Assembly: GCA_030683705.1 (NCBI GenBank)
Contig: JAUXPP010000070.1
Span: 1 to 64,000, forward strand
Source: Polaromonas sp.
GTDB lineage: Bacteria; Pseudomonadota; Gammaproteobacteria; Burkholderiales; Burkholderiaceae_C
Reading direction: 5' to 3'
DNA length: 64,000 nt
Below are positions 14,215-53,060 of the stretch, piece by piece; position 1 is the first letter of the stretch, and every line of letters begins with the position of its first letter. Under the pieces are notes generated by a model. That model worked only from the letters and a program-made list of their open reading frames with translations, made no database searches and had not been told where the DNA came from. The position numbers and the translations under genes were made by a program.

Positions 14215-16050
14215 ATGCGCTTTTCGAAATTCGAGTTTAAGAATTTTCGCGGGATTAGTGGGGCGGTTTTAGATCTTTCTAGAACCCAGAAAGAGGCCGT
14301 CAATGTCTTGGTCGGTTTGAATGAATCCGGGAAGACCACTGTTCTGGAGGCGATAAATCATTTTCGTTCCAATCCTGATTTAAAACGTAAAGACCCGAAT
14401 CAGAACCCACGCGTTCAGTCGGACTACCAAGCAATGCTACCCATTGGCGAGCGCGCCCTATTCAACGGCGTAGTAAGCATAAAGTCGACGCTTTCATTTG
14501 AGCCGCAAGACATTGCTGAGTTCGATAAATTTTTGAAGTCCGAATTTCAATTCGTGGAATCCAAATATGCAAAGAGCTTCTACATAGATTTCAGAGTTAC
14601 GTTCGAGGACTCTCAGCTAAAAAAGCTAAATAACAGCTGGGGTCTTCAGTTTCATGGACGTAAAAGAAAAGGCCGAACCCCATTCAAGAAACTCGAAGGT
14701 GAAGACTGGATGAAGGCAGTCGGCTTTTTGGAAAAATTACTTCCTAAAGTCATGTACTTTCCGTCTTCCCTGCTGGAATTTCCCGATCGGATTCAGCTTG
14801 AAAACCCTTCCAACTCCAAGAATGCCCCCGCAACTCCAAATAAGACTAGCTTCTACTATCAAGTAATCGCGGACGTCCTTCACGCAATTGATCCGAAGTT
14901 AGATCTTGAGAAACATGTACTTGAGCGAGCCAGAAGTCGGGTCGACGCAGATACCCAAAATTTGGATGCTCTAGTCCAAAAAGTTGAAGTTCACTTGAAT
15001 CAAACCGTACTTGGGGAATGGCAGAGAACTTTGGGAGCCACTTTAGGAGGCAAGCGATTTAAGTTTTACGTAAAAAAGGACGAGAAGGGCTGTGTATACG
15101 CAGAAATCAAACTATTAGACGGAAATAATTTGTTCTCGTTAAATGAACGATCGGCCGGCTTTAGATGGTTTTTCGCGTTCATTATGCTCGTCAAGTACCG
15201 AGTTCATCGCAATGATCGAGTCTTGTTTTTGTTTGACGAACCAGCAGCTAACTTGCATCCACGCGCGCAGGCACTTCTACTAAACAGCTTTGCCTTGTTG
15301 TCTGAAAGTCATCAATTTGTTTTCTCCACTCACAGCCATTATCTGGTCAATCCACTTTGGCTAGAGTCAACATTTATTGTGAAAAACGAGGCGACCGAGG
15401 AAATAAATTTCGACACAGACCCGGCAACGTCGAATATTTCGATTACGCCGTATCGAACATTCGTCGGGAGTCATGCAGAGCAGTACTTCTATTACAAGCC
15501 TGTAATGGATGCCCTCGAGTACACGCCAGCAAAAATTAGTCCGGAAACTGCGTCCATTCTTATTGAAGGCAAGACCGATTTTTACTGTTTAGAGTACTTT
15601 AAAAGGGTGTACTTCAAGGATCAGTTTGAAGTGACTTTTTTTCCAGGTGGGGGCAGCGGAACTCTGGATCCTCTAATCTCACTCCTGTCCGGTTGGGCTG
15701 TAAACTTTTTAATCTTGTTGGACGGTGACGAAAGTGGAATTAAGGAGAAGGCGCGTTACGAGAATAAATTTGAATCTCTAGTTTCAGGAAGAATAAAGAC
15801 AATTTCTGAACTTCTTAAGACCGCAAAAAAAAGCCGAATCGAGGAGGTTTTTTTACCTGCAGACTTAGACCTCATCAGATTAAGCATCTTCCCTCAAGAA
15901 AAGAACTTGTCTAAAAAACTCTTGCATAAAGCCGTTCAAGAACTACTGGCAGGTAATCGTAAGCTGCCGTTTAGTCAAGAGACACTAAGCCAGTTCGAAC
16001 AGCTCCTGACCGGACTAGAGGCCGAGTATCAACTATTCAACTTGCTGTGA
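14215..16050 (+). CDS. OLD-family ATP-dependent endonuclease (AAA ATPase plus TOPRIM)
   Basis: This 611-residue protein combines an SMC/RecF-like ATPase with a C-terminal TOPRIM nuclease domain. Walker A is GLNESGKT (residues 34-41); the ABC-type Walker B, FLFDEPAANLHPRAQ, lies near residue 340, followed by the H-loop STHSH. TOPRIM motifs are ILIEGKTDFY (about 447-456) and LLDGDESG (about 500-507). This domain order fits class 1 OLD proteins, some of which act in phage defence. The gene is visibly A+T-rich with many AAA, TTT and ATT codons, unlike the GC-rich neighbours, which suggests recent transfer. No separate helicase (GajB-like) gene follows. Confidence 0.88.
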   Translation: MRFSKFEFKNFRGISGAVLDLSRTQKEAVNVLVGLNESGKTTVLEAINHFRSNPDLKRKDPNQNPRVQSDYQAMLPIGERALFNGVVSIKSTLSFEPQDIAEFDKFLKSEFQFVESKYAKSFYIDFRVTFEDSQLKKLNNSWGLQFHGRKRKGRTPFKKLEGEDWMKAVGFLEKLLPKVMYFPSSLLEFPDRIQLENPSNSKNAPATPNKTSFYYQVIADVLHAIDPKLDLEKHVLERARSRVDADTQNLDALVQKVEVHLNQTVLGEWQRTLGATLGGKRFKFYVKKDEKGCVYAEIKLLDGNNLFSLNERSAGFRWFFAFIMLVKYRVHRNDRVLFLFDEPAANLHPRAQALLLNSFALLSESHQFVFSTHSHYLVNPLWLESTFIVKNEATEEINFDTDPATSNISITPYRTFVGSHAEQYFYYKPVMDALEYTPAKISPETASILIEGKTDFYCLEYFKRVYFKDQFEVTFFPGGGSGTLDPLISLLSGWAVNFLILLDGDESGIKEKARYENKFESLVSGRIKTISELLKTAKKSRIEEVFLPADLDLIRLSIFPQEKNLSKKLLHKAVQELLAGNRKLPFSQETLSQFEQLLTGLEAEYQLFNLL

Positions 16051-27769: not shown

Positions 27770-28885
27770 CTATCCATCCACCAACTCAAACACCCCCAGC
27801 GCCTGCGGCTGGCCGTTGAGCAGCACATCGACGCGGTGTTTACCGGCGTGGTGCTTGCGGGTCGTCATCTCGGCAGTGGACACCGTCTTGCTCAAGCGCG
27901 CGGTGTCCCTGGGCGCCAGGTCCAGCACCTTGAGCTTGAACACCTTGGCGCTGGTCTTGCCGCTGGCCTTGACGTAGTGGATGCAGAAGTCCACCAGCAG
28001 GCGTTGCGCCTTGTGGCTGGTGTTGGTGATGTCGAAAGCGATAGTCACCTTCTCACCCATCACCACCCGCTTGGGAGTGATGCGCGCGTTCGCCACTTCG
28101 ACCTCTGCACTTTTGCCGAAACCCAGCGCCGACAGCGCACCGGCTTCGCCGCGTTTGACGGCGGAACGCAGCGCGTGCTGCACGATCCAACGGCGTTCGT
28201 CACTCGCGCCCTTGAGCCACTGCTTCGCCGTCTGCGCCAGCAGCTCCGGGTGGTCCTTGCCGATGTCGTTGAGGTTGTTGGCGACCGAGCGGCGCACATA
28301 CAGCGCCGGGTCGTCCCTGAGCAGCTCCAGCAGTTCGAGCACCGGCGCCGGATTTTTCTGGAAGGCCGGCAGGCGGCTGGCCCAGGGCAGGCGCGGGCGA
28401 CTGCCTTCGGACACCAGGCGCCGCACATGTTCGCTGGTGTCGCCGGTCCACTGCCTGAAACGCGCCAGCGTGGCCGCCTCGTGGTGCTGCAAAAAGGCGC
28501 GGATGCTGAACTCGGCGGTGAAACGCTGCGTCAGCGCATGTTGCGCGCGCATGGATTCCTCGAAGTGGCCAAGCCCGAACTGCGCGACAAACAGCGTGTG
28601 CGGCAAATACAAAAAGGAGCCCAGGCTCAGGCCCGGGTCGCGGCCGTGCGGCTGGTCCAGCGAGGCCAGCAGGATGGCGATGGCCTTCGGGTAATCGGCC
28701 GGCAAATGCCGCTGCAGCGCCTGCGCGATGTGTTTGCCACGCGGCATCAGGGCCAGGGCCTCATACCCCTCGAGTGCATCGTTCACAAACTTGCGCGACG
28801 CAAAGGCCGGAAACACCGCCGAGATCATGCGGGCAATCGCCTTGGGCACGTCGGCGCCGTACTGATTGACGAGGGGTTCTGCCAT
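27770..28885 (-). CDS. DNA alkylation repair (AlkD-like HEAT-repeat) protein
   Basis: The 371-residue protein has N-terminal MAEPLVNQYGADVPKAIARM followed by HEAT-like helical pairs. The part FSIRAFLQHHEAATLARFRQWTGDTSEHVRRLVSEGSRPRLPWA and LYVRRSVANNLNDIGKDHP are typical of the alkylation-repair HEAT family (PF08713). The C-terminal quarter (VVMGEKVTIAFDITNTSHKAQRLLVDF) is a beta-sandwich not found in AlkD itself. AlkD glycosylases remove N3- and N7-alkylpurines, but many family members are not proven enzymes. It ends 56 bases from the LysR gene and starts 4 bases before waaA. Two more alkylation-repair genes lie at 32.9-35.1 kb. Confidence 0.82.
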   Translation of the reverse strand: MAEPLVNQYGADVPKAIARMISAVFPAFASRKFVNDALEGYEALALMPRGKHIAQALQRHLPADYPKAIAILLASLDQPHGRDPGLSLGSFLYLPHTLFVAQFGLGHFEESMRAQHALTQRFTAEFSIRAFLQHHEAATLARFRQWTGDTSEHVRRLVSEGSRPRLPWASRLPAFQKNPAPVLELLELLRDDPALYVRRSVANNLNDIGKDHPELLAQTAKQWLKGASDERRWIVQHALRSAVKRGEAGALSALGFGKSAEVEVANARITPKRVVMGEKVTIAFDITNTSHKAQRLLVDFCIHYVKASGKTSAKVFKLKVLDLAPRDTARLSKTVSTAEMTTRKHHAGKHRVDVLLNGQPQALGVFELVDG

Positions 28886-28889
28886 CGAC

Positions 28890-30194
28890 TCAGCGTTCCA
28901 GAAAATGCGCCAGCGCCTGCACCGTGTTGGCGGCCGCGCCGCGGTGCTGCGCCGCAAAGCCCAGGCTGGCCTGCGCCGCATGCTGCTGGGTGGACGGGCG
29001 GGCCAGCATGGCGCAGGCGCTGCGCACGGCTTCGTCCATGCCGGCCACGCGGCGCGCCGCGCCGGCCGCCTCCGCCAGTTCGGACACCTCGGCAAAGTTG
29101 AAGGTGTGCGGGCCCATGATGACGGGGCAGCCGCAGGCGGCGGCCTCGATCAGGTTCTGTCCGCCCAATGGCTCGACGCTGCCACCCAGCAGGGCCACGT
29201 CGCTCATCGCGTACTACAGCGCCATCTCGCCGATGGAGTCGCCGAGCCAGACATCGGCGGCCTGCGGCGCGCCGTTCCAGGCCGAACGCCGCGCGACCGA
29301 CAGTCCGTGTTTTTCGGCCAGCGCCTGGACCTCGTCAAAGCGCTGCGGATGGCGCGGCACGATGAGCATCTGCGGCTCCTGGTTTGCTACGGTATTGATA
29401 GCTGCCTGCGCACGTCTGGATTGGGCCAGGGCCGTTATTTGTTTGAAAAATACGTCCTCCTCGCCTTCGCGCGAGCTGGCCAGCATCAGCACCGGCCGGC
29501 CCAGCGCCAGGCGCCAGGCGCGGCCCTGGGCCTGCTGCGCCTCGTCCGGCGTGGCGTCGAACTTGAGGTTGCCGAACACGCCCTGTACCGTGGCGCCGAG
29601 CTCGCGCAGGCGCTGCGCGTCGCTGTCGCTCTGCGCATACACCGCCGCCAGGCCGGCATAGGCAGGCCGTGACAACGGCGCCATGCGCGCCGCCCGCTGC
29701 AGCGACTTGTCGGACAGGCGCGCGTTCACCAGGACCAGCGGCACGCCGCGCGCCTGCGCGCAGGCCACGCTGTTGGGCCAGACCTCGGTTTCCAGCAGCA
29801 GGCCCAGGCGCGGCTGGAAGTGCGCAAAAAAACGCGCCACGGCGGCCTGGCTGTCCCAGGGCTGCCAGACCTGCACATCCCCTTCGCGCAGCAGGCCGGC
29901 GCCCTCGGCGCGCCCGGTGGCCGTGCCATGCGTCAGCAACACACGCAGGCCGGGCCAGCGCTCGCGCAAGGCCGCCAGCAGAATGCCGGCGGTACGGGTT
30001 TCACCGAGCGACACCGCATGCACCCAGACCAGCTCGGAGCGCAGCTCCGCAGGGTGGGTGTAAAAACCAAAACGCTCATCCACCGCTTCGAGGTAACCGG
30101 CCTCGGCCTGGCCGCGGCGCCGCAGCTTGCGCCGCAGAAAGGGCTGGGCCGCCCACATCAGCAGCGAATACAGCGTGCGCAGCATGGCTTCCAT
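28890..30194 (-). pseudogene. waaA: 3-deoxy-D-manno-octulosonic acid transferase WaaA, interrupted by an in-frame amber codon
   Basis: Read straight through, the frame 30194-28890 encodes about 433 residues with the WaaA layout: N-terminal MLRTLYSLLMWAAQPFLRRKL anchor, LVWVHAVSLGETRTA, GRPVLMLASSREGEED, VPRHPQRFDEV, and GDSIGEMAL then YAMSDVALLGGSVEPLGGQN. A TAG at 29216-29214 lies between GEMAL and YAMSD, where relatives have a tyrosine, so a single TAC to TAG change is enough. The codon removes the last 108 residues, with the Kdo-binding GGS...GG loop. WaaA transfers Kdo from CMP-Kdo to lipid A and is usually essential. The start overlaps the waaC stop (TGATG). Confidence 0.88.
29386..29414 (+). 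repeat. Dispersed GCTAC/ATAGCTG repeat inside waaA
   Basis: The copy gctacggtattgatagctg then cctgcgcacg lies in waaA in the orientation opposite to the gene. It is read in frame as RRAQAAINTVAN. It lies between the donor-binding core (EEDVFFKQITAL) and the VPRHPQRF motif. Confidence 0.8.
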
Positions 30195-31219
30195 CAGGCG
30201 GCACCTTGTGCTGTTTCCGGCGGCCGGCAGGCCAGCCAGGCCTGCCAGACCTGCGCCACCGTGGGGCACGGTTGTGCGAACACGCTGCGCTGGCGCGCGC
30301 TCGCCTCATCCGGCAGCGGCCCGGTGCGCCAGGCCGTGTCGAAGTTGTAAATCTGCACATGCGGCAGGTCCAGCGCCACCGCGATGTGGCTGAGGCCGCT
30401 GTCCACGCCGATGACACCGGCGCACTGCGCGAGTTGCGCTGTGAGTTCGTCCAGCGCCATCCGCGGCAACACGACAGCTTTGTTTTCGCTGGTGTTCAAG
30501 CCCTCGGCAATCGCCTGGCTGATGGCCAGCTCCGCGTCGCTGCCATGCGGCAGCGCGATCAGGTAGCCCGGGGCATTCAGTTGACGGCCCAGCGCCACCC
30601 AGTTCTCGACCGGCCAGAGCTTGTCGGCACGCGAGCTGCCGTGCACAAACGCTATCATTTCAGGAGCTGCTTGCGCAGTTCCGGTGCGGTCCGCAACGCG
30701 ATTCAAGCCATAGTCCGGGCGGGGAGCCGGGGTGTAGCCGAGCGCGCGCCCCGCCAGCGCGCGGCCGCGCAGCACGGCATGGCTGTGCGGCGGCAAGTCG
30801 ATCGCCACATCGGCCACCCAGCGTGTCGGCGCCTCGTAGCCCGAACCCTCGGTCTGGTTGGCCATGGCGTAACGCCGGCCACCGGGCGCCAGCCGCGCCA
30901 GCCAGGCCACCAGCGCCGACTTGGCGAGGCCCTGCAGGTCGATCACGGCATCGTAGGACTGGCTTTGCAGCTCGCGCCGGAAGGCGCGCCAGGCAGTGCG
31001 CGTGGCCGCGCTGAAAGGCGCCTTGCGCCAGCGCCGCAGCTCGCAGGGAATGACACGCTGCAGGCCGCGGCCCAGCAGCGGGCTCAGCAGCGGCGCAAAG
31101 GCTTTTTCCACCACCCAGTCGATTTGTGCGCCCGGATGCGCGGCCAGGATGTCCCGCACCACGGGCAGCGTGTGCACCACGTCGCCCAGTGACGAGAGTT
31201 TGACGATCAAAACCTTCAT
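30194..31219 (-). CDS. waaC: ADP-heptose:LPS heptosyltransferase I
   Basis: The 341-residue glycosyltransferase 9 family protein adds the first heptose to the Kdo of the LPS inner core. The start MKVLIVKLSSLGDVVHTLPVV is the conserved N terminus; I chose 31219, since the frame continues upstream without conserved residues. Other blocks are DLQGLAKSALVAWL, FVHGSSRADKLWPVENWVALG and VIGVDSGLSHIAVALDLPHVQIY. Before FVHGSSR the stretch GTAQAAPEMIA is encoded by the dispersed repeat at 30651-30684. The gene lies 28 bases after pgm and overlaps waaA by TGATG, so they form one LPS operon. Confidence 0.92.
   Translation of the reverse strand: MKVLIVKLSSLGDVVHTLPVVRDILAAHPGAQIDWVVEKAFAPLLSPLLGRGLQRVIPCELRRWRKAPFSAATRTAWRAFRRELQSQSYDAVIDLQGLAKSALVAWLARLAPGGRRYAMANQTEGSGYEAPTRWVADVAIDLPPHSHAVLRGRALAGRALGYTPAPRPDYGLNRVADRTGTAQAAPEMIAFVHGSSRADKLWPVENWVALGRQLNAPGYLIALPHGSDAELAISQAIAEGLNTSENKAVVLPRMALDELTAQLAQCAGVIGVDSGLSHIAVALDLPHVQIYNFDTAWRTGPLPDEASARQRSVFAQPCPTVAQVWQAWLACRPPETAQGAA
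30651..30684 (+). repeat. Dispersed GCTAT repeat inside waaC
   Basis: A copy (gctatcatttcaggagctgc then ttgcgcagttccgg) lies opposite to the gene direction and is read in frame as GTAQAAPEMIA. It sits in a surface linker before the donor-site motif HGSSRADKLW. Confidence 0.8.
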
Positions 31220-31247
31220 GCGGTCGATTGTCGCGTCGCAGGTTTGA

Positions 31248-32633
31248 CTAGTGCGCCGAAGCGGCAAAACTCGCGTCCGGCTTGACGCTGTGCAGCAGGC
31301 TCAGCATGTCGCTCTGGATGCGCTGGAGCGCGGCCTCGGTGTGGCCTTCAAAACGCAGCACCAGCACCGGCGTGGTGTTGGACGCGCGGATCAGGCCGAA
31401 GCCGTCCGGCCAGTCGACCCGCACGCCGTCGATGGTGCTGATCTTGGCGGGGGCCGCAAACGATGCGGTCTTGATGAGCTGCTCGACGACCGTGTGCGGC
31501 TCGCCTTCCTTGCAGGCGACGTTGAGCTCGGGCGTGCTGAAACTGGTCGGCAGGCCGTTGAGCAGCGCGCCGACGTCGGCCACCCGGCTCAGGATCTCCA
31601 GCAGGCGCGCGCCGGCATAGGTGCCGTCGTCGAAACCGAACCAGCGCTCCTTGAAAAAGATGTGGCCGCTCATCTCGCCGCCCAGCGGGGAATCGACTTC
31701 CTTCATCTTCGCCTTGATCAGCGAATGGCCGGTCCTGTACATCATGGGCACGCCGCCGGCCGCAGTGATCTCGGGCGCCAGCCGCTGCGAACATTTCACG
31801 TCGTAAACAATGGTGCCGCCCGGCACGCGCGACAGCACATCGCGGGCAAACAGCATCATCTGGCGGTCGGGGTAGATGTTCTGGCCGTCCCGCGTGACGA
31901 TGCCCAGGCGGTCGCCGTCGCCGTCGAACGCCAGGCCGATTTCGGCGTCGCCGGCCTGCAGCGCGGCGATCAGATCTTTCAGGTTCTCGGGTTTGCTCGG
32001 GTCCGGGTGGTGGTTGGGGAAGTCACCGTCGACCTCGCTGAACAGTTCGGTCACCTCACAACCGAGTGCGCGGAAGATGCCCGGGGCCGAAGCGCCGGCA
32101 ATGCCGTTGCCGGAATCGATCACCACCTTCATGGGCCGCGCCAGCTTGATGTCGGACACGATGCGGTCGCGGTAAGGCGCGAGCACGTTGACGTGGGTGA
32201 TTTTCCCGCTGCGGGCCGGCGCGGGGCTGTCGCCCGCTTCCATGCGCTGGCGCAAGCCCTGGATCTCGTCGCCGTAAATCGCGCGGCCGGCCATCACCAT
32301 CTTGAAGCCGTTGTAGTCCTTGGGATTGTGGCTGCCGGTGATCTGGATGCCGGAGTTCGCCAGCGTACAGGCGGCGAAATACAACATGGGCGTGGTGACC
32401 ATGCCGACATCGACCACATCGACGCCGCTGGCAACCAGGCCGCGGATCAGGGCCGCCGAGAGCGCCGGCCCGCTGACCCGGCCGTCGCGACCCACGGCGA
32501 CCACGGTCTCGCCCAGTGCCAGCGCACGGGTGCCGAACGCCAGCCCCAGGGCTTCGGCCACGGACTCGTTGACGGTGGACGGCACGACACCGCGGATGTC
32601 GTAAGCCTTGAAAATCGAGGGGTTCACCTGCAT
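31248..32633 (-). CDS. Phosphomannomutase/phosphoglucomutase (AlgC type)
   Basis: The 461-residue alpha-D-phosphohexomutase interconverts 1- and 6-phosphates of mannose or glucose for LPS and exopolysaccharide precursors. The active-site phosphoserine loop is GIQITGSHNPKDYNGFK, the magnesium loop is AFDGDGDRLGIV, the sugar-binding loop is GGEMSGHIFF, and the phosphate-binding loop is RASNTTPVLVLRFEG. The N terminus MQVNPSIFKAYDIRG is typical. The start at 32633 is supported by this conservation. The product is directly relevant to the following waaC-waaA genes, and the three form one minus-strand operon. I leave the symbol empty because algC, manB and pgm names are used interchangeably. Confidence 0.92.
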   Translation of the reverse strand: MQVNPSIFKAYDIRGVVPSTVNESVAEALGLAFGTRALALGETVVAVGRDGRVSGPALSAALIRGLVASGVDVVDVGMVTTPMLYFAACTLANSGIQITGSHNPKDYNGFKMVMAGRAIYGDEIQGLRQRMEAGDSPAPARSGKITHVNVLAPYRDRIVSDIKLARPMKVVIDSGNGIAGASAPGIFRALGCEVTELFSEVDGDFPNHHPDPSKPENLKDLIAALQAGDAEIGLAFDGDGDRLGIVTRDGQNIYPDRQMMLFARDVLSRVPGGTIVYDVKCSQRLAPEITAAGGVPMMYRTGHSLIKAKMKEVDSPLGGEMSGHIFFKERWFGFDDGTYAGARLLEILSRVADVGALLNGLPTSFSTPELNVACKEGEPHTVVEQLIKTASFAAPAKISTIDGVRVDWPDGFGLIRASNTTPVLVLRFEGHTEAALQRIQSDMLSLLHSVKPDASFAASAH

Positions 32634-36858: not shown

Positions 36859-38064
36859 ATGGCTCGGATCACGCAGCGCGACAACGGCAAGTGGCAGGCA
36901 AAGATTGAACGGGTCGGTTGGCCAGGCCAAAGCAAAACCTTTCGGTTGAAAAAAGACGCCGATGCGTGGGCGACAGCCGTCGAGCGTGAGATGGATAGAG
37001 GCGCCTTCATCAATCGTGATGACGCTGAACGCACTACGTTTGAAGCGGCAGCTGGTCGCTATGCAGCGGAAGTGTTGCCGTCAAAGCGAGGCGTCGCTCA
37101 AGACACGATGCGTGTAAAGCGGCTGGTCGAGAAATTTGGCAAATACTCGCTGGCTTCGATCAGTTCGGCCATGGTAGCGGCATACCGTGATGAAAGGCTA
37201 AAAGTCGTATCGCCACAAACAGTGGTTCATGAGTTGGGCATGATCTCAAGGATTTTCAAGGCCTGTGCCATGGACTGGGGCATCGCACTTCCACATGGCA
37301 ACCCAGCCATCTTGGTACGAAAACCTGCAGTTGCCAATGAACGCACTCGTCGCCTCCAAGCATACGAAGAGACGCTACTGCTAACCGCCCTGCTCGATTG
37401 CAAGTCTCCTTGGCCCCATGCTGCCGTCTGTTTGGCACTCGAAACAGCAGGCCGTCAATCGGAGCTGTTGTCCATGAAATGGAAAGAAATTGACTTGGTA
37501 AAACGCACTGCACGACTGCGCGGCATCGACGGACGAATCACTAAAAGCGGCGATGAATACAGGGATGTGCCGCTATCTACTCGGGCGGTGAACCTGCTTG
37601 ACAGCCTGCCCCGGACCAGAAAAGCCAATCTTGTACCGATAAATAAGAAACAACCATCCGCGCCTATTGCAGGACGGGTGCTACCGATCACTCAAAGTGC
37701 GCTCCAGCTGAGTTTTGAGCGCGGTGTTGCACGCGGCAGGCAAAGTCATATCCACGGACTTCTACGCAAAGCCTTATCCGAGGCCGGCTTGAGTGAAGCG
37801 GCCGTGTCGGCTGAAATACGGGCCTTGATCTACAAAAAGAAAGCCCCGCTGCAGCTAACTCTCGAGCTTCTGTCTGGCTTAGAAAATGAGGACAAGACAC
37901 TTCTTGATCTCCACTTTCATGACCTTCGGCATGAGGCCACGTCGCGCTTAGCCGACAAACTTCAAATGCATGAGCTAATGAAGGTAACTGGGCATAAGAC
38001 CTCACGCATGATATCGAGGTACTACCACCCGCGGGCTGAAGATCTGGCAAAGAAGCTTGGGTAA
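36859..38064 (+). CDS. Tyrosine-type site-specific integrase
   Basis: This 401-residue recombinase is adjacent to the left attachment site. An N-terminal arm-binding/core-binding region (residues 1-160, starting MARITQRDNGKWQAKIERVG) is followed by the catalytic domain. Visible catalytic residues are R199 (ETAGRQSELL), K229 (ITKSGDEYRDVPL), H354 and R357 (HFHDLRHEA), H379 (TGHKT) and the nucleophile Y388 or Y389 (SRYYHPR). A segment of about 60 residues (286-350) between the K and HxxR blocks is longer than usual and helical. The start follows aaggaatattt. It should catalyse integration and excision at tRNA-Asp. Confidence 0.93.
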   Translation: MARITQRDNGKWQAKIERVGWPGQSKTFRLKKDADAWATAVEREMDRGAFINRDDAERTTFEAAAGRYAAEVLPSKRGVAQDTMRVKRLVEKFGKYSLASISSAMVAAYRDERLKVVSPQTVVHELGMISRIFKACAMDWGIALPHGNPAILVRKPAVANERTRRLQAYEETLLLTALLDCKSPWPHAAVCLALETAGRQSELLSMKWKEIDLVKRTARLRGIDGRITKSGDEYRDVPLSTRAVNLLDSLPRTRKANLVPINKKQPSAPIAGRVLPITQSALQLSFERGVARGRQSHIHGLLRKALSEAGLSEAAVSAEIRALIYKKKAPLQLTLELLSGLENEDKTLLDLHFHDLRHEATSRLADKLQMHELMKVTGHKTSRMISRYYHPRAEDLAKKLG

Positions 38065-38088
38065 TCGGCCGAACTTTGAGTGCAAACG

Positions 38089-39162
38089 TTAAAGACTTTC
38101 AATAGCTCTGTCCTTATTGAATGCGTGTTTTAGCAGCACTTTTAGGCGGAATTTAACTGCGTAAGAGTCATTCGGCGATTGCGAGTATCGATCAAACTCA
38201 ATAAGGTCGTAGTCAGCTTTTGCGATGTCGACCTCTGCGACTTCCCTGTTTTTCTCACGCAACTTATCGAAGCTCAAAAGCTTTTGCCTTGTGACTTTGC
38301 TGGTCCAGCCTTCGTCAAGGGCAATTCGAAACAGGTAGAAGTACAGCATGACCATGCCGATTGAGCGCAATAAAACGTCCCCGTCCGTGAATACTTTACT
38401 CATTGCCGCAACCGTGGCTTTTGCCTTTGGCGTGACTGTCAGCTTTTTCGTTTTGGGCTGATCTTCCTTATCTTTGACAAACCTGTCGAGGTAAGCTTTC
38501 TTGGTATCCACCACCGCACCGTGTTCCTGAGCAACAAGGAACTTCAAAGCGAGGTCGAAATGCCGATACCTTTTATTCAAGAAAGGAAGCTTTTTCTTGA
38601 AAAACGACGTGGCGGACAGCTCCCGTACTGCACCAGGGACGGGACCTGCCCATGCGTTTCTTCTTTCAGCTGCGGTAAGTGGGACTGCCTCATTCAACCT
38701 GGAGAACATTTCCTCGATCAGATCGGTATCATCCGTCTCGATGGTAATGACATTCAGCTGAAAATTGTCGAGATCAGTTTTTAGATCAGGGTAGTCCGTC
38801 GCAAGCTCTTGATAAGTCATGCTCCGAGCGTCAACGCCCGTGTCGTGGAAATACTCAAACTCGTCAGACAGAGCAATTTTCCCCTCAATGAAGCTCCACA
38901 TCGTTTCGAGGCGCTGCCGGCCATCAACGATGGCGTAGTCATATTTGGCACCAGCCAAAATTTTTGGTTTAGCGAACTTGTGCAGATAAATTTTCGGGAT
39001 ATCGAACTTATTGATGAGCGTGTCGATTAGCAGCTGGCGCTTATCCATAGTCCACACTTCACCCTGTCGCTGATATTCCGGATTAACCTGGATCTTCTTG
39101 CTCATGCGATACAAAGTCCACACGCTGGCCCCATGAATGGATCCGACTTCAAATTTGATCAT
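38089..39162 (-). CDS. DUF262-domain protein (ParB/Srx-like nuclease fold)
   Basis: The 357-residue protein has an N-terminal DUF262 domain: NPEYQRQGEVWT (27-38), DTLINKFDIPKIYL and the signature IVDGRQRLETMWSF with D80-G-R-Q-R84. This is followed by NEAVPLTAAERRNA, typical of the fold. DUF262 domains occur in GmrSD-type enzymes and other defence proteins as nucleotide-dependent nucleases or regulators. This protein lacks the C-terminal DUF1524 HNH half of GmrSD; its C-terminal half is a helical region of unknown type. The start overlaps the stop of the FRG gene (ATGA), so they form one operon and perhaps a functional pair. Confidence 0.85.
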   Translation of the reverse strand: MIKFEVGSIHGASVWTLYRMSKKIQVNPEYQRQGEVWTMDKRQLLIDTLINKFDIPKIYLHKFAKPKILAGAKYDYAIVDGRQRLETMWSFIEGKIALSDEFEYFHDTGVDARSMTYQELATDYPDLKTDLDNFQLNVITIETDDTDLIEEMFSRLNEAVPLTAAERRNAWAGPVPGAVRELSATSFFKKKLPFLNKRYRHFDLALKFLVAQEHGAVVDTKKAYLDRFVKDKEDQPKTKKLTVTPKAKATVAAMSKVFTDGDVLLRSIGMVMLYFYLFRIALDEGWTSKVTRQKLLSFDKLREKNREVAEVDIAKADYDLIEFDRYSQSPNDSYAVKFRLKVLLKHAFNKDRAIESL

Positions 39163-39905
39163 TTGAGATATTCTTTCTTAATCAATTCGGCCACCTCGTC
39201 AATGTCAGGAAAGAGAGTCAGAGTGGAATATCCAAGGTGCTGAAGCTCCGCCCGAATCCTCGCCTTTTTATCCTTAGGGATGATGTATTTCCATACGTGC
39301 TTGGTATCGTACAAAGCTTCGATCGGTTCATGCACGGAGTGATTCACTGTGAACGTCCCCATCTGTGCAGCCATCCTCTTGGTTGGGCGCGGGCCTATCG
39401 CGGCAACAGGATTCATCGGACTTTTGGGATCAACGCGGCTCGGCAAGTAGTTTTCCAGCGCCCTATCTCTAAACGAAGGAAGTTCTAGCTCATATGCGAA
39501 GCTCACATTCGCCTTGGTGTTCAAAGCAATAGGATCAAGGCACCAAAAGGCGGCGTCGTCCCGATCTTTACTGGAGTCAAAAGTTGCAAAGAAAAGTGCG
39601 ACCAATGGCCCCTCGCTCCAATCCAGCAAACGTGTAGGAGCTCGATGATGCTGCATCACGAATAACCAGTCCCACTCATCGGTAGGAGCTTGGGTCATTA
39701 GCTGCGTGGCATTTTGAACAAATCTTTTATAGATTGCGCCCTCTTTGGCAAGATGCTTACCTGCGTCCCGCGCAAGTGAAGGAACTAGGCCCCACCGGCT
39801 GTCCGATTGCCCTCGAAACCAAACCACATCAGCTGGCGTCACATGCTTCTTGAGCAGCCTCAGTAAGTCGGACACGCCTTGGATCTTCGCCTCTCGATGA
39901 CGCAT
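39159..39905 (-). CDS. FRG-domain protein
   Basis: The 248-residue protein contains an FRG domain: VVWFRGQSDSRWGLVPSLAR at residues 27-46, and the hallmark WLFVMQHHRAPTRLLDWSEGPLVALFFA in the middle. The domain is named for the Phe-Arg-Gly motif and is often found in mobile elements and defence islands; its biochemical activity is unproven, though relations to ADP-ribosyl transferase-like folds have been suggested. The gene is A+T-rich compared with the flanks. It is the first gene of a two-gene operon with the DUF262 gene and starts after agggggcaattc. Confidence 0.87.
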   Translation of the reverse strand: MRHREAKIQGVSDLLRLLKKHVTPADVVWFRGQSDSRWGLVPSLARDAGKHLAKEGAIYKRFVQNATQLMTQAPTDEWDWLFVMQHHRAPTRLLDWSEGPLVALFFATFDSSKDRDDAAFWCLDPIALNTKANVSFAYELELPSFRDRALENYLPSRVDPKSPMNPVAAIGPRPTKRMAAQMGTFTVNHSVHEPIEALYDTKHVWKYIIPKDKKARIRAELQHLGYSTLTLFPDIDEVAELIKKEYLK

Positions 39906-40072
39906 GAATTGCCCCCTGTTGTTGTTCGCCAGAAATTCTTATCAGACAGGCTTGCTTCCCAACGGCACCCGCCTCAACAAATTTTTCCAGCGTCAATCTT
40001 AACCAGTTGTAACCAATCCAAGGTTACATGGAGCCTTTAACGCCTCACAAAAAGCGCATTACTCAGACTGGC

Positions 40073-40735
40073 CTAGCCGGGTTGGCTCGGATTCGGACGT
40101 ATCAACGTCTGGTCATCAGTGAATGTCGCAGTCCTCAGATATGTCTTCACATCACGCTGGACCTCCGCAGCGGTCTCAGGGCGTACGGCACATCTTTCAG
40201 CCCATGATCGCCCTGGGTGTAATACATCCCACCGCGGGCGCATACCGAGAAAGCGCCCGCTTCCTGGGTTGTGGTTTCCAAAACCGTCGATCAACGAATT
40301 CCACACCGGGGTAAATTTGCTAATCAACAAAGATTCGCCCAGGGGAATCCAGATTTCGTCCACAACCAAAAACCGACAATGAAAATCCGCCAACTTCAAG
40401 TTCGACGTTTGATTAATGCTTTCGGCGTGCTCCGCCAGACGTCGCGCGAGAACTCGGCTGAGGGAAACCGGCGCCAGTGACCCACCCTTGCGGGATCCCG
40501 CCGGCACTGCCTTGCCAATATAAATTGGCGCAAGAAATTGATTTTTGCGATTGTGCTCGGAAAGTTTTTCGTACGCGGGGAAGTTGCCGGTGTAGTAGAT
40601 GGCATAGAGTCCGGCGCCAGTGAAAGCTCCGATGTCACCAAGCGGAACGACAGGACGCCCAAGCATTGCTTCGGCGACGCTCGCTCCTAGATTCTTTTTG
40701 TCGAGCGGATTGAAAGGGATGACGTTGCCGCTCAC
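40073..40735 (-). CDS. Eco29kI-like GIY-YIG type II restriction endonuclease
   Basis: The 220-residue protein shows a GIY-YIG nuclease core: GLYAIYYTG (42-50) and APIYIGK (69-75), then an arginine helix (LSRVLARRLAEH) and a glutamate in IPLGESLLISKFTPVWN. This arrangement is typical of Eco29kI and relatives, which cut CCGCGG. The start is a GTG overlapping the stop of the methyltransferase gene (GTGA), so the two are co-translated with the methyltransferase first, which favours methylation before cutting. The CCGCGG specificity is inferred from family resemblance only. CCGCGG occurs in the window, for example near 1698 and 42946. Confidence 0.85.
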   Translation of the reverse strand: MSGNVIPFNPLDKKNLGASVAEAMLGRPVVPLGDIGAFTGAGLYAIYYTGNFPAYEKLSEHNRKNQFLAPIYIGKAVPAGSRKGGSLAPVSLSRVLARRLAEHAESINQTSNLKLADFHCRFLVVDEIWIPLGESLLISKFTPVWNSLIDGFGNHNPGSGRFLGMRPRWDVLHPGRSWAERCAVRPETAAEVQRDVKTYLRTATFTDDQTLIRPNPSQPG

Positions 40736-41949
40736 GCCGCTCTCCAGCGCCGCGAGTTAGCACTCGCCAGTTCTGACAACTTTGCCTCAATAAGGCACTG
40801 AGCAACGCTACAGGTAACAGCTTGAGCAAGCAACACCGGCACGGCATTTCCCAGCTGTCGCATCGTTTCTGTCCAAGATCCATGGAAACGATAACCATCA
40901 GGAAAGGTTTGGATTCTTGCTGACTCGCGAATTGTGAAGTAGCGGACCTCTCCATCCGGCTTTACAAGCATATTCTCGCCACCAGGAACGCCATGATCCC
41001 CCGCTTTGAGTGTTTTCGCCGGCAAGTCCAGTGGACTCCCGGTATGCCCCTTGTACGCACGCGCACCTGGTTGAAAACGGTGGTCAGGAAAACTGGCCGC
41101 AGCGCGTGATTCGGGATCGGGCAATCCTACGAGCGCGTCACGCACTGTGCGCCACGGCTGCCCATCGGACTGGAGCTCACCAGCAACACGTTGTGCCCGC
41201 GCCTGGAGCGCCGGAGAAACCTCGGGGCGAGCCTTCTTTGCTACCTTATGTCGATCCCAGTACTGCCCAGTGACCCATTGATCCACCATTAGAGAGGTAT
41301 GTGAATGCGTCGGCGTCGGGAAGGACCACTTCACGTTCAAGTCATGTCGGAAGCCAACCATGAAGACCCGCTCTCGCTTCTGCGGAACTCCGTAGTCAGC
41401 GGCATTCACGAGGGTGGGCACAACGTTATATGTGAGGCCTTTGCCATGAAGCGCCCCAGACGCGCGCTCCTTCTGTAATCGCATCAAGTGGTCGTACCAA
41501 GCTTCATTTCGACGCCTTACGACCTCAGGGAACTCCAGCTGCAGCAAGATGTACTGATAGTAGTTCGCGAAGCTCGAGCGAGTCAGGCCTTTAACATTCT
41601 CCACAATAAATGCCTTCGGCCGCAATTGCCGAACAATAGCAACAGTAGCCGGAAACATGTCGCGACTGTCGTCATGCGCCTTGTGCTTTCCTCCCATGGA
41701 AAACGGCTGACACGGTGGGCCACCAGCAAGAAGCTCGATGTCCTGAGGAATCGTGGACCAATCAAACTCACGAACGTCCCCTTCATGCAAGGGCCAGCCG
41801 GCGACCAGTGGATATTCGCGCGCGCGATTTTCCCGAATCGTGTCGCAGGCCCATTTATCCCATTCCACGACGGCCAAAGGCTTAAAACCCGCCAAGCTCG
41901 CCCCGAGCGCAAGCCCTCCAGCACCAGCATAAAGCTCAACAGCATTCAT
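40732..41949 (-). CDS. DNA cytosine-5 methyltransferase (Eco29kI-type)
   Basis: The 405-residue C5-methyltransferase protects DNA against its partner nuclease. Motif I is ELYAGAGGLALG near the N terminus, motif IV with the catalytic cysteine is GGPPCQPFSMGGKHK (C80), motif VI is IVENVKGL, motif VIII is QKRERVFMVG, and the target-recognition region is followed by motif X QLGNAVPVLLAQAV. The start MNAVELYAG at 41949 is the family-typical N terminus; eight more codons are open upstream. It is the first gene of the restriction-modification pair, in the middle of an element that also carries a possible second defence pair. Confidence 0.93.
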   Translation of the reverse strand: MNAVELYAGAGGLALGASLAGFKPLAVVEWDKWACDTIRENRAREYPLVAGWPLHEGDVREFDWSTIPQDIELLAGGPPCQPFSMGGKHKAHDDSRDMFPATVAIVRQLRPKAFIVENVKGLTRSSFANYYQYILLQLEFPEVVRRRNEAWYDHLMRLQKERASGALHGKGLTYNVVPTLVNAADYGVPQKRERVFMVGFRHDLNVKWSFPTPTHSHTSLMVDQWVTGQYWDRHKVAKKARPEVSPALQARAQRVAGELQSDGQPWRTVRDALVGLPDPESRAAASFPDHRFQPGARAYKGHTGSPLDLPAKTLKAGDHGVPGGENMLVKPDGEVRYFTIRESARIQTFPDGYRFHGSWTETMRQLGNAVPVLLAQAVTCSVAQCLIEAKLSELASANSRRWRAA

Positions 41950-42094
41950 CGATCGCGCCCCCCAGAAAATCAATCATCGTTGTGACCATTAAAACTGTGT
42001 CTTTATACAGCATCTGATCCTTCGCGGTCAGGCGAAATATTGACCCTTTGCTATTAAATTCACTCCTCAACAGAGAACAGCGACTCCCCTTGAC

Positions 42095-42335
42095 CGCCGC
42101 TTGGGCTTCGCCACATGCCGCCGCCTGCGGCGCCGGCATCTTTTATCTTCAGATGGGCGCGAAAGACGTAAGCGGCTTCGCCGCCTGTCTATCAGGATGA
42201 GGGGCCGTGCGGCCGCCTGGAAGGACCTACGGTCAATGGCCTTCAGAGCCTGCGGCTCTGGTAGCGCTGCGCGCGCGGCGTTGGCGGCGACGCCGCGTGG
42301 ACGGCTGCGGTGCTAGACGCTACGTCTGCACCGTG
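42095..42335. other. Hairpin-dense non-coding segment
   Basis: The 386 bases between the methyltransferase start (41949) and the next gene hold no convincing coding sequence. From about 42095 the DNA is a chain of short, perfect or nearly perfect hairpins with tetraloops: ggcttcgcc, gcggcttcgccgc, gccgtgcggc, gagcctgcggctc and ggcggcgacgccgc. The loops are often TTCG or TGCG, which are unusually stable in RNA. It may be a structured transcript end, a cluster of protein-binding sites, or a recombination scar between modules. Confidence 0.65.
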
Positions 42336-42845
42336 CTAGAACGCGCTGCTGTGTGACTTAAACACCTCACGAGCAGCAATTGCCGGATCCATGTGCCCAC
42401 GTTGGGCGTATGCGCCCCAGGATACGTAAGACAGCACTTCGTACCCCAACTTTTCTTCCGTGAGTGCCTTGTACTCGTCATAGAACACCAACACCCAAGC
42501 CTGTTTTTCTGGCGGAGTGAACGTTGGCAGATTGTGCAAAGATTTGAAATGAGTCGCCTGCCCAACGTCCTTGACCTCCAGCGTCTCCCTGCCATGCCGG
42601 TTGACTATCTCTAACGGGAATAAATCGCTGCACCCATCAAATCGTGCGAAAAAATTGGCGCCTTTCTTGATGTCCTCCACGATTCCCGACGCCGCAGCTT
42701 CGTAGTTCTGCTCCATGAACCCCACGGCTTCAAGTTCAGGGGTCAATGGATCAATGCAATAAATCACCAGCTCTTCAAGGAAGCCGTTTTCAAAGCGAGC
42801 AGATCCCGTCAGGTAGTTGGACGCTTCGCGTGCCTCTTCAGTCAT
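42336..42845 (-). CDS. Hypothetical protein coupled to the SRAP gene
   Basis: A 169-residue acidic protein starts MTEEAREASNYLTGSARFEN and contains FGWGAYAQRG-like aromatic patches (LSYVSWGAYAQRGHMDP). It has no signal peptide, and three cysteines. I do not recognise a domain. The start overlaps the stop of the SRAP gene by four bases (ATGA), which strongly suggests co-translation and an SOS-controlled transcript. The downstream hairpin-rich segment could end this transcript. A role linked to DNA damage is likely by context only. Confidence 0.65.
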   Translation of the reverse strand: MTEEAREASNYLTGSARFENGFLEELVIYCIDPLTPELEAVGFMEQNYEAAASGIVEDIKKGANFFARFDGCSDLFPLEIVNRHGRETLEVKDVGQATHFKSLHNLPTFTPPEKQAWVLVFYDEYKALTEEKLGYEVLSYVSWGAYAQRGHMDPAIAAREVFKSHSSAF

Positions 42846-43552
42846 AACAGTTCTTTCTGTTCATTTGTCTTGGGCGGCTTAGGCGGCACCGGCGTCGCCA
42901 AGAGTTTGTCGGCCGGGAAATGCCGGATGAAGTCCATGTTTTCAGCCGCGGGGGCGTTGAGCCAGTCAGCATACTGGCTCTGGGGCAGGATCACGATGAT
43001 CCTCTTCTCATCCTCGGGCCGATGGTAGTTTTTCAACAGTTCGTGCTCCGTCGCATTCATCGTCAGCATGGTGAAACTCAGCAGCGGCGGCTTGCCCGGC
43101 TCCGTCCAGACGTCCCACAGGCCGGCAATACCGATGGGCTGGCCGTCCGCCCTGGTGAACCTGGTGGCCACTGCTCTGCCCGTGCGCCAGTCAGGCTCAT
43201 AAAAAGCGTCTGCCGGCACGATGCAGCGCTGCCCGCGTTGCCAGGCGGGCCCGAAGGTGAAGTTCTTATCAATTCCCTCAACGCGGGCGTTGAAGGTTGA
43301 TCGCGCCATTGCCTTCTTGATGTTTTCTGGATCTGCCTTCAGGCGCCAGGGCACAAGGCCCCACCGGCCAAGCACCGCCTCCCGTAGCGGCACCGCCTCG
43401 TCGTGCGGGTCGGTCTCCGGCGGCTTGCGGACGAACGTGCCGGTGTAGCGCGGCCACATGTCCAGCTTGCCCTGCGGTGGTGTTGGCTGCAGAACGTCGA
43501 AGTACTTTTTGTAGTCCTCATACGCTCTCAGCGCTTCGAAATGGCTGCACAT
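42842..43552 (-). CDS. SOS response-associated peptidase (SRAP/HMCES-YedK family)
   Basis: The 236-residue SRAP protein crosslinks to abasic sites in single-stranded DNA. The start at 43552 puts the catalytic cysteine at position 2 (MCSHFEAL), as required after removal of Met1; the frame is open upstream but that would bury the cysteine. Other landmarks are RWGLVPW, STFNARVEG, CIVPADAFYEPDW and FTMLTMNATEHELLKNYHRPE (catalytic histidine region). It is divergent from umuD, with 36 bases between the starts that hold the LexA box. Presence next to umuDC suggests the pair is induced by DNA damage. Confidence 0.9.
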   Translation of the reverse strand: MCSHFEALRAYEDYKKYFDVLQPTPPQGKLDMWPRYTGTFVRKPPETDPHDEAVPLREAVLGRWGLVPWRLKADPENIKKAMARSTFNARVEGIDKNFTFGPAWQRGQRCIVPADAFYEPDWRTGRAVATRFTRADGQPIGIAGLWDVWTEPGKPPLLSFTMLTMNATEHELLKNYHRPEDEKRIIVILPQSQYADWLNAPAAENMDFIRHFPADKLLATPVPPKPPKTNEQKELL

Positions 43553-43554
43553 TC

Positions 43555-43598
43555 TTGAAACTTTACGCTTACTCAATATACTGTACGTATGCACAGTA
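43555..43598 (+). promoter_or_regulatory. umuD promoter with LexA (SOS) box overlapping -10 and start codon
   Basis: On the plus strand a -35 TTGAAA (43555-43560) and a -10 TATACT (43577-43582) are spaced 16 bases apart. The LexA box TACTGTACGTATGCACAGTA (43579-43598) matches CTGT-N8-ACAG and is nearly palindromic. It overlaps the -10 and contains the umuD ATG (43589-43591). Transcription would begin at about the ATG, suggesting a leaderless mRNA. The same box lies upstream of the divergent SRAP gene, so both sides are probably LexA-controlled. Confidence 0.85.
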
Positions 43599-44026
43599 TA
43601 AATCCTCCCGACGCGATTGCCTTTTTATCTGGTGCACGGGTGCCGGTCGCGTGGGTGGAAGGCACTGTGCCGGCGGGGTTTCCTTCCCCGGCCGCCGACT
43701 TTGCGGTCAAGCGCCACGATTTGAACGAGCTGCTAATCACCCACCCTGCGGCCACCTTCATGTGGCAGGCCCGCGGCTTGTCCATGATCGACTTGGGCAT
43801 TGCCGACGGGGATATCCTGGTGGTGAACCGGGCGTTGAATCCCAAACACGGGGATATTGTGGTGGCCGAGATTGACGGGGACTTCACCGTCAAGCAGTTC
43901 TGGCGCCGTAGTGGGATAGTGCAGCTACGCGCTGGGAACGCCACATTCCCGCCGATCCTGTTCAAGGACGGCCAGACAATGACAATTTGCGGTGTGGTCA
44001 CCGCCACGATCAAGCGCTTCAAGTGA
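43589..44026 (+). CDS. umuD: UmuD-like translesion polymerase subunit (S24 self-cleaving)
   Basis: The 145-residue protein is the accessory subunit of DNA polymerase V. The self-cleavage site is A29-G30 in [11 protein letters not shown], which matches the UmuD consensus. The catalytic serine is S65 ([10 protein letters not shown]; most UmuD proteins have GDSM here), and the catalytic lysine is K102 (GDFTVKQF). The [11 protein letters not shown] block is typical of the family. The start codon lies inside the LexA box; there is no later ATG or GTG before the conserved region. It overlaps no gene and is followed 4 bases later by umuC. Confidence 0.9.
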
Positions 44027-44030
44027 TGCC

Positions 44031-45326
44031 ATGTTTGCGCTGGTGGATGGGAACAATTTTTACGTAAGCTGCGAGCGCGCTTTTCGCCCGTCGCTCAAGA
44101 ACCGCCCGGTCGTGGTGCTCAGCAACAACGATGGCTGCGCGATTGCCCGAAGCAACGAGGCCAAGGCTCTGGGCATCCGTATGGGCGCGCCCTGGTTCGA
44201 ATGCCGGCAACTGGCTGAGGAGCACGGGGTGGTGGCTCTGTCCGCTAACTTTGTGCTTTACGGCGACATGAGCGACCGGATGATGTCCGTGGCAGCCGGT
44301 CTCGGCCCGGGCCAGGAGATCTACAGCATTGACGAATCGTTCATCGACTTGGCCGGCGTGCCAGGCGACCTGACGGATCGAGCCAGGCGCGTGCGCGAGC
44401 GAGTCTTGCAGTGGACTGGAATCCCCACCGGCATCGGCATTGCCCCCACCAAGACGCTGGCCAAACTGGCCAACCACATCGCCAAAAGCGCGGACCGCAA
44501 GCCTGGTAGCTACCCCGCTGAGCTGGCCCGGGTCTGCAACCTGGCCAGGCTGCCGGCCGCAGACCTTGAGGCTGTGCTGCAGGCCACGGCTGTGGGTGAG
44601 GTATGGGGCGTCGGCCGAAGGATCGCCGACCAATTGAATGAAGAGGGCGTGCTGACCGTGCTCGACCTAGTTCGGCTGGATCCCGCTACCGTACGCCGAC
44701 GCTGGAGCGTGGTGCTTGAGCGCACTGTGCGCGAGTTACAGGGCCAGCAATGCATCAGCCTGGAGGACCAACCGTCCCCTAAAAAAGAAATTGCGTTTAC
44801 CCGCAGCTTTGGCGGCGCGGTCACTGAGCTGGAAGACCTCGTGGCCGCCGTGACGCGCTTTGCCAGCGGCGCGGCTGCGAAGCTACGTACCCAAGGCAGC
44901 AAAGCCGGGCAGATTCAGGTGTTTGCACACACCAGCGCATTCAGGCCAGGGCCAAAATACAGCCGAAGCTTGGTGCTGCCCCTTCGCCGGCCCACGGACG
45001 ACAGTGTGGTGCTGGTCAACGCGGCCGTGCGCGGCATCCAGGCGATCTACCGACCAGGCTTTAACTTCGCCAAGGCTGGCGTGATGTTGCTCGACCTGCA
45101 GGATGGCGGCATCAAGCAGGGCGAACTGGACTTGGAGCCTGAACCGGAGGCACGCGGACACCTGATGGGCGCCCTGGATAAGCTCAACGATCGCTATGGG
45201 CGCGGCACCGTGACGCTGGCCAGCGCCGGGGTCAAAGGACCGCAGCGAGATTTTGAGATGAAGCAAAACCTGCTGACGCCGCAGTACACGACATGCTGGG
45301 CTGATCTGCCTGTGGCGAAAGCATAG
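44031..45326 (+). CDS. umuC: Y-family DNA polymerase UmuC
   Basis: The 431-residue polymerase V catalytic subunit starts [20 protein letters not shown], the conserved N terminus; the start at 44031 lies 4 bases after umuD. It has the Y-family residues: D6 region (VDGNNF), SIDESFIDL with the catalytic acidic residues, and [19 protein letters not shown] helix-hairpin-helix ([21 protein letters not shown]) and a little-finger/DUF4113-like end follow. Copies of umuDC on mobile elements are known and raise mutation in hosts. The two genes are on one transcript from the LexA-controlled promoter. Confidence 0.95.
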
Positions 45327-45379
45327 CGTGCTGCTGGCCGCCATGAGGGCGACATAGTCAAGTTTCGGAAGCCGCAAAT

Positions 45380-46003
45380 ATGACATCATTCGGGATGCTT
45401 CGTGCGCCACAACTCTGGCCGTCACTCTCCACGCCGGAAAACGAGGTCGTGGCCGTAAGAGACCTATATGCGCACCTGACGGGTCTGTCATACAGCGTGG
45501 AAGCATGGGAAGCCGCCCTCCTGCTGTACGTTACCGCAAAGAAACCTCCTGCAGCAATTCCAAGCGATGTGGCGCGACGGTGGCAATTTATCGCTTGCCA
45601 TGAGTGCGTATTGGAGCTCTTCCACTTGCGATCACGTCTTGAGAAGATTCAGTCCGTCAAACTGCGCAACTGCCCGTCCATTCGATGCTCAGTAGATCTG
45701 ACACGAATCAAAAAAACACGGAAAAAGTTCGATGAGTATTTCCCGGACACTGAAGCGCTGCGTCATGCGATCGCCCACAAAGGCCAGAACGAATCGCATT
45801 CCGACGTACATGCACCTGATGGGGTTTTCGCCCTATTCGGGTTCCGGACACCGGATCAGTTCAGCGCACCCTACGAGGGGAAATTGCGTTACCTCGACAT
45901 CACGCATGAGTCTTTGAGGCGGATCAAAGAAGTGGTGACGGAGTACTTCACAGCCTTCGAAGGGGCGGCGCGAGAGTTGGAAGCCCAAGGACACCTCGAC
46001 TGA
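45380..46003 (+). CDS. Hypothetical helical protein, possible HEPN-like
   Basis: The 207-residue protein starts MTSFGMLRAPQLWPSLSTPE. It appears mostly helical, with SVEAWEAALLLYVTAKK and a C-terminal ESLRRIKEVVTEYFTAFEGAARELEAQG. In the middle LRHAIAHKGQNE contains an R-x4-H motif (R-HAIA-H) of the kind in HEPN RNase domains and in 'LRxxIAHxG' helical proteins. This is suggestive but not diagnostic. The start follows ggaagccgcaaat. It lies 54 bases after umuC on the same strand, then a convergent gene. The function is unknown. Confidence 0.65.
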   Translation: MTSFGMLRAPQLWPSLSTPENEVVAVRDLYAHLTGLSYSVEAWEAALLLYVTAKKPPAAIPSDVARRWQFIACHECVLELFHLRSRLEKIQSVKLRNCPSIRCSVDLTRIKKTRKKFDEYFPDTEALRHAIAHKGQNESHSDVHAPDGVFALFGFRTPDQFSAPYEGKLRYLDITHESLRRIKEVVTEYFTAFEGAARELEAQGHLD

Positions 46004-46017
46004 CGCGCCCTGATGCT

Positions 46018-48267: not shown

Positions 48268-48479
48268 GGGCGCTCCGTGGTATCGGTGTTCGGTTTCGGC
48301 CTGATGCCGGCCAGGCGGCGGATCGTGGGCATGTCCATCGTGGCCACCTGGACCACCGGACTTGCTGCGTGGGCAGCATCGATGAGCTGGTCGAGGGACT
48401 CGTGTGCTTGGGCGAGGCCTTGGTCCTTGGCCATCATCCCTACCCAGGCCCAAAAACAAGCCTCGTAGTGGGCGGTCAT
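48264..48479 (-). CDS. Small hypothetical protein (71 aa) in the DotA/TraY operon
   Basis: A 71-residue protein starts MTAHYEACFWAWVGMMAKDQ and ends IRPKPNTDTTERP. It is probably helical, acidic-neutral, with no signal peptide. Both ends overlap the neighbouring genes by four bases (ATGA at 48476-48479 and at 48264-48267), which is strong support that it is translated as part of the operon. I do not recognise a family. Confidence 0.7.
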   Translation of the reverse strand: MTAHYEACFWAWVGMMAKDQGLAQAHESLDQLIDAAHAASPVVQVATMDMPTIRRLAGIRPKPNTDTTERP

Positions 48480-49102
48480 TTACGGATCCAGAGTGGATCA
48501 GTCAAGCGCCCGAAGACTCGCTTCCAGATGGGATGAGCCAGCTTCATGGCGATGCCGCCGAAAAACATGGCCAACAAGCTCCGAACCGCGGCTTCGATGT
48601 ATCCGGCCATAGTGGGTGACCGGTTCACCGTTTGGAAGGTCCTGGTCTGCTCTTTTCTGACATCGGTCACCGCGTGCCTGACCGACTTGAACTCGCGCTC
48701 CCTCACCTGTGCGAAAAACCTCGATTCGATGGCCGCGAAGTTGTCGAGCTTGTCACAGGCCACATCGGCCAGACGGAAAGACTTGCTGCTCCAGCTCTTG
48801 AGGTTTGGAAGCAAAGGCGGGGAGGACTGGATGCGAATGTCCATCATGCAAACGGGAGAAGTACCGTTGATCACTGACTCGTCGAACCACGGCGAAAAGA
48901 ACATGTAGACCATGAAAAACAGGATCAAGCCGATGGTGTTGGCCCAGATCGCCATGCGCATGATCGCGCTACCGGTCCCAAGGTTCTCGGATCGTCGGCC
49001 CTTGCGTGCACCGCAGCCGCTACAGACGGTTGCATACGCGGGCACGGATGTGGAGCAAAACGGGCAGGTGGGGCCGTAGTGGTCGATTTCCGGTGTGTTC
49101 AT
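48476..49102 (-). CDS. Zinc-ribbon membrane protein
   Basis: The 208-residue protein starts MNTPEIDHYGPTCPFCSTSV and has an N-terminal zinc ribbon with CPFC and CSGC (4 cysteines). A transmembrane helix follows (MAIWANTIGLILFFMVYMFF), then a long soluble part with two cysteines, and a second hydrophobic stretch (AAVRSLLAMFFGGIAMKLAHP). The topology suggests a cytoplasmic ribbon. The start at 49102 overlaps the stop of the upstream coiled-coil gene (ATGA at 49099-49102). The function is unknown, but operon context points to conjugation or surface exclusion. Confidence 0.75.
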   Translation of the reverse strand: MNTPEIDHYGPTCPFCSTSVPAYATVCSGCGARKGRRSENLGTGSAIMRMAIWANTIGLILFFMVYMFFSPWFDESVINGTSPVCMMDIRIQSSPPLLPNLKSWSSKSFRLADVACDKLDNFAAIESRFFAQVREREFKSVRHAVTDVRKEQTRTFQTVNRSPTMAGYIEAAVRSLLAMFFGGIAMKLAHPIWKRVFGRLTDPLWIRK

Positions 49103-52845: not shown

Positions 52846-52892
52846 CCGTTCAAATTTTTTGGCGACCGAAGGGAGTAAAAAAAATCAAGCGA

Positions 52893-52924: not shown

Positions 52925-53060
52925 ACATGGCTTGCTCCCCGCCTGACCTATTCGGCCTATGATCCGACTGCCGCTGTTTTTATGTGCCACCAAAAGTACA
53001 CAGCAAGTGCACTCTGATTCGAGCAGCACACCTGCCAGGGCGTGCCTGCCCAGCCTTGCG

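Follow-up and report, generated by a model that had tools for sequence, protein, structure and literature searches.

The in-frame TAG that interrupts waaA in this draft genome of Polaromonas is very probably a local consensus error in a mixed, metagenome-assembled bin, and the organism's real waaA would most likely be an ordinary, uninterrupted Kdo transferase. On this reading the stop would belong to one of a number of read-length patches of incorrect bases spread through the bin, and low-coverage read ends or strain mixing would be their likely sources. The original prediction had listed five possibilities (a split enzyme made by reinitiation, stop-codon readthrough, a second waaA copy, loss of Kdo addition, or a sequencing error) and had presented the stop as a notable split of a normally essential gene. 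A sequencing error is the best supported of the five; the split-gene framing is not supported, and the same bin has stops in lon, a trpG-like gene, ftsK, ileS, recA and others.

The waaA reading frame and its in-frame stop

In the window, by which we mean the whole 64,000-nucleotide stretch of DNA that was analysed, the waaA frame lies on the minus strand (30194-28890) and runs from an ATG at 30194 to a TGA at 28892-28890, open except for one TAG. This TAG, at 29216-29214, is codon 327 of 434. The assembled sequence confirms the prediction of a single TAG in an otherwise open frame, as well as that of an ATG only six bases past it, which begins an ORF of 105 residues (28890-29207, minus strand). 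As assembled, then, waaA does not form one uninterrupted frame. The part before the stop (29217-30194) encodes 326 residues and matches PF04413, the N-terminal kdotransferase domain, with an E value of 2.7e-57 (193.7 bits, against a cut-off of 23.9); its nearest matches are Polaromonas genomes, the best being 87% identical. The part after the stop (28890-29213) encodes 107 residues followed by the natural TGA and can be aligned to the solved transferases 4BFC and 2XCI. In NF004386, the NCBIfam model for the lipid IVA Kdo transferase, the first part occupies profile positions 1-320 and the 105-residue ORF positions 326-427. Judged by these matches and alignments, both sides of the stop are of one family.

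The neighbouring genes are on the same strand. Immediately upstream is waaC (30194-31267), encoding heptosyltransferase I, which is unbroken, matches TIGR02193 over its cut-off and also PF01075, and is collinear with relatives. It is preceded by pgm (31248-32633), encoding a phosphoglucomutase/phosphomannomutase with four PGM_PMM domains, and waaA is followed by a gene at 27770-28885 with a weak HEAT-repeat match below the cut-off; both of these are unbroken and both end in TAG. The order of pgm, waaC and the downstream gene is collinear with that in P. eurypsychrophila. The expectation of an intact pgm-waaC-waaA operon therefore holds for pgm and waaC, which are unbroken and collinear, and fails for waaA. 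WaaC uses the product of WaaA as its substrate, and kdsB and lpxK, elsewhere in the bin, are unbroken. Since waaC, kdsB and lpxK are all unbroken, the pathway looks maintained.

Two other regions of the window have a different character. The stretch at 36859-56408, beside a cluster of tRNA-Asp, tRNA-Glu and tRNA-Ala genes, has mostly low coding scores and carries genes for an integrase, a GmrSD N-terminal domain, an FRG domain, a C5 cytosine methylase and SRAP, along with an ImpB/MucB/SamB-family gene, a MobA/VirD2-type relaxase and an AAA/STAND-like ATPase; it is probably a mobile island with defence genes. The gene at 14215-16050 encodes a large ATPase (AAA_15/AAA_21) that also matches an OLD-like TOPRIM weakly; its coding score is low, and it may be a defence gene of foreign origin.

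The stop site in relatives

We examined the position of the stop in 109 loci of relatives; L111, which has a break at another place, was excluded before counting. The remaining 108 loci, readable in frame across the site, all encode tyrosine there (57 TAT and 51 TAC), which bears out the residue originally proposed, though they represent fewer than 108 independent genomes, some being apparently duplicated between two collections. In a separate sample of 150 genomes from the same family, the Polaromonas bin included, 147 gave a waaA match, and among the matches listed two had a stop inside waaA, namely the Polaromonas bin and genome G193. The stop in G193 was rejected as an interruption, being the natural end of that gene, and all the stops flagged in relatives (L030, L069, G193 and G040) proved to be natural gene ends or a stop just before the gene. 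A search of viral contigs for a copy of the waaA stop site found none.

The part of waaA behind the stop shows no sign of decay. Against seven relatives its dN/dS is 0.12-0.30, close to the 0.18-0.27 of the part before the stop, and both parts are thus under the same constraint. Where 97% or more of the relatives agree in a column, the bin departs from them in none of 108 columns before the stop and in one of 33 behind it; this one lies 13 codons from the stop.

Other interrupted genes in the same bin

Searching for in-frame stops with same-frame coding sequence on both sides revealed eight further conserved genes that are interrupted in about 1.4 Mb of the bin, one of them less surely than the rest. 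The scan covered stretches of 542,630, 356,800, 305,369 and 221,471 bases, so that the figure of about 1.4 Mb includes some overlap, which was not removed, and some unreadable bases. The scan required at least 30 open codons on each side and so overlooks breaks close to the ends of genes; its score threshold varied slightly between scripts. It returned 203 candidates (55, 63, 62 and 23, some of them twice), which we sorted by visual inspection, in part on known protein motifs. Nine candidate pairs were then checked in Pfam, and in lon (L142), the trpG-like gene (L160) and a D-amino-acid transaminase gene (L218) one Pfam family was found on both sides of the stop; the other six pairs gave no such shared family. 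Family matches also flank the stops in ftsK (L241), a short-chain dehydrogenase gene (L239) and recA (L263), and in ileS (L240) both parts fall in one model, giving matches on both sides in seven of the eight. In the eighth, the gene for a DHH protein (L281), only the second part has a family match, the first part having given none, and this gene is probably interrupted. Judged by where the two parts fall in the model, about one residue fits between them in ileS, in recA and in the transaminase gene. For lon and the trpG-like gene, the two that were searched, no second copy of full similarity was seen in the bin.

Including that of waaA there are nine stops: a TAA in recA and a TAG in each of the other eight genes. 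The amino acids that relatives carry at these sites differ between genes, where the residues in ileS, recA, the transaminase, the dehydrogenase and the DHH protein, like the name trpG, are ones that we presume. With two kinds of stop at different amino acids, no single reassignment explains them. From the codon usage, 2.8% of random coding substitutions create a stop and 52% of these stops are TAG, and nine stops would thus correspond to some 320 substitutions, or roughly one per 4 to 5 kb. The genes ileS, ftsK and recA are ones whose joint loss in a single living lineage is hard to believe, and we consider it unlikely that one viable lineage carries all these interruptions.

The interruptions are thinly spread. 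We set about 520 kb of the bin against ORFs taken from two relatives as references, in 97 comparisons that include some genes twice; among the genes covered no other true interruption appeared, so the patches would be sparse. Two genes in this synteny comparison that looked frame-broken were rejected, because the breaks precede what we read as the true starts, and other flags, lying within roughly ten aligned residues of either end, were taken as differences in start or end.

Composition of the bin

The source of the sequence is a draft bin of 4.11 Mb in 172 contigs, 91.8% complete and 5.0% contaminated; the window lies on its contig C51. It has two copies of prfA and two of prfB (L258-L261, on bin contigs C169, C56, C51 and C15), which diverge by 18-20% at the DNA level, and hence more than one organism is present in the bin. 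Such mixing of organisms is a possible source of wrong bases.

Two further features of the bin were noted in passing. One contig of 19.7 kb (C17, L271) has 37% G+C, compared with about 65% in the rest of the bin, and is probably foreign. Another (C109, L148) carries at 868-2328 a DUF2523 gene and, next after it, a Zot-family gene (a family name only); this pair is usual in filamentous phages, and the region is probably a filamentous prophage.

Private changes around the stops

Another way to view the stops is in relation to other changes that the bin does not share with its relatives. In ftsK, an alignment with eight relatives gave 453 invariant amino-acid columns in 503 codons, of which five are violated in the bin, and all five violations fall inside 96 nucleotides, the stop included. 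Four of them arise by one type of base change and one by another. We made the same kind of alignment for lon (five relatives), the trpG-like gene (seven) and waaA (twelve). In codons, the distance from the stop to the nearest private replacement is 2 for lon, 3 for the trpG-like gene, 6 for waaA and 7 for ftsK, with proximity p values of 0.02, 0.03, 0.15 and 0.06 respectively, and a combined value of 0.0023. At the nucleotide level, the private changes that fall no more than 20 codons from the stop number 5 of 15 in waaA, the stop included (1.4 expected), all 4 in the trpG-like gene (0.8 expected) and 4 of 44 in lon (2.2 expected).

Taken by itself, waaA gives weak evidence for an error patch (p 0.15). 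The suspected patch spans codons 321-345 (29160-29234, minus strand), with several private changes including the stop, and one change beside the stop gives a residue that is also found in other relatives. Over five coding stretches at waaA, the bin shows no excess of private replacements: it has 12, and its three nearest relatives have 17, 5 and 4. Across the genes tested, the clustering of private changes is observed, as are the waaA stop, its absence from relatives and the interruption of other genes in the bin. We infer that the clusters are errors rather than mutations, and likewise infer their origin; they would fit wrong bases in single reads or a poorly supported consensus. The sequencing-error motifs described in the consulted part of PMC4787001 end in GG, with preferential incorporation of G, and GG is absent before the waaA stop, so that there is no clear fit to the motifs given in that part.

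Alternative explanations for the stop

The first alternative is that the stop is a real and recent nonsense mutation, so that the cells, or one strain among them, have no WaaA and make a lipid A without Kdo, which they tolerate in the cold. Polaromonas is a cold-living genus, and the nearest relatives of the sequence are Polaromonas. The undecayed part behind the stop is what a recent event would leave. The essentiality of waaA, moreover, is less strict than had been claimed, E. coli deletions without suppressors having been obtained at 21 degrees according to the consulted part of PMC8151780. Against this, a mutation in waaA leaves the stops in ileS, ftsK, recA, lon and the trpG-like gene unexplained, and the pathway looks maintained in the unbroken waaC, kdsB and lpxK. 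We regard a real mutation as unlikely.

Natural suppression, in which a suppressor tRNA reads UAG, and perhaps UAA, as sense and stops are tolerated in many genes, would explain all nine interrupted genes, eight of them by TAG, at once. However, TAG would make up 52% of random stops from codon usage anyway, and private replacements beside the stops are not predicted by suppression. The suppressor tRNA that the original prediction suggested looking for did not appear: none of the 38 tRNAs of the bin (found with Rfam and typed with ARAGORN) has a CTA or TTA anticodon, this being an incomplete set in which no tRNA for Trp or Ile and no Leu-CAA was found, and a further tRNA search of the bin again gave neither anticodon. 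TAG-only recoding was rejected, since the recA stop is TAA. Loss of release factor 1 was likewise rejected, given a full-length prfA over the cut-off on contig C169; the second prfA is cut by the contig end on C56, and with two copies the full-length one may not belong to the organism of the waaA contig. Nor is TAG avoided as a terminator, for it ends 50 of 292 genes sampled in the bin, compared with 45 of 221 in P. eurypsychrophila. Suppression is accordingly rated very improbable, and no greater credence attaches to the version in which an undetected suppressor tRNA lies in the missing part of the genome and stops have drifted harmlessly into waaA, lon, the trpG-like gene, ftsK, ileS, recA and others.

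Another reading is that translation restarts at the ATG that follows the TAG by six bases, and that the two resulting parts of WaaA assemble into an active enzyme. The in-frame position of that ATG and the conservation of both parts would suit such a split. We looked for a ribosome-binding signal above background at the restart ATG and found none: anti-SD pairing there amounts to -2.0 kcal/mol, a value that 68% of random sites equal or surpass. A methionine also occurs at this position in several relatives with an unbroken waaA, which argues that the ATG is not an adaptation to the stop. Reinitiation would, in addition, explain none of the other stops, and we hold a split enzyme to be highly doubtful.

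That the waaA described here is a dead copy, with a working second waaA in genomic sequence that the bin lacks, is hardly credible: the bin is indeed mixed and 91.8% complete, but PF04413, both parts of the gene and a relative's full-length protein each find one place in it, so that the second copy originally suggested was not found there, most relatives have a single waaA match, and the gene lies in its conserved place beside waaC under normal constraint.

Thus, of the readings considered, we prefer a consensus error. As biology, the waaA stop probably does not matter. Its value is one of method: when a draft bin shows a striking stop in an essential gene, other important genes of that bin and the private changes around their stops should be checked, and here the wider look turned an apparent exception into a problem of quality. 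Should the stops be real after all, they would make this organism a possible case of natural nonsense suppression that deserves detailed study.

Comparison with known systems

Compared with the WaaA Kdo transferases of known structure (2XCI and 4BFC), the Polaromonas gene has the same family parts in the same order, with only the stop between them, and differs from the loci of its relatives in carrying an in-frame TAG where all 108 that are readable have tyrosine. Known cases of natural nonsense suppression or stop reassignment likewise show stops within otherwise conserved genes, but the bin differs from them in that no suppressor tRNA was found, prfA is present at full length and TAG is an ordinary terminator. 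Patches of consensus error in draft metagenome-assembled genomes are a known kind of artefact. Those proposed here are deduced from the assembled sequence, and they resemble that artefact: a single bin has stops in several important genes, and private changes gather close to them.
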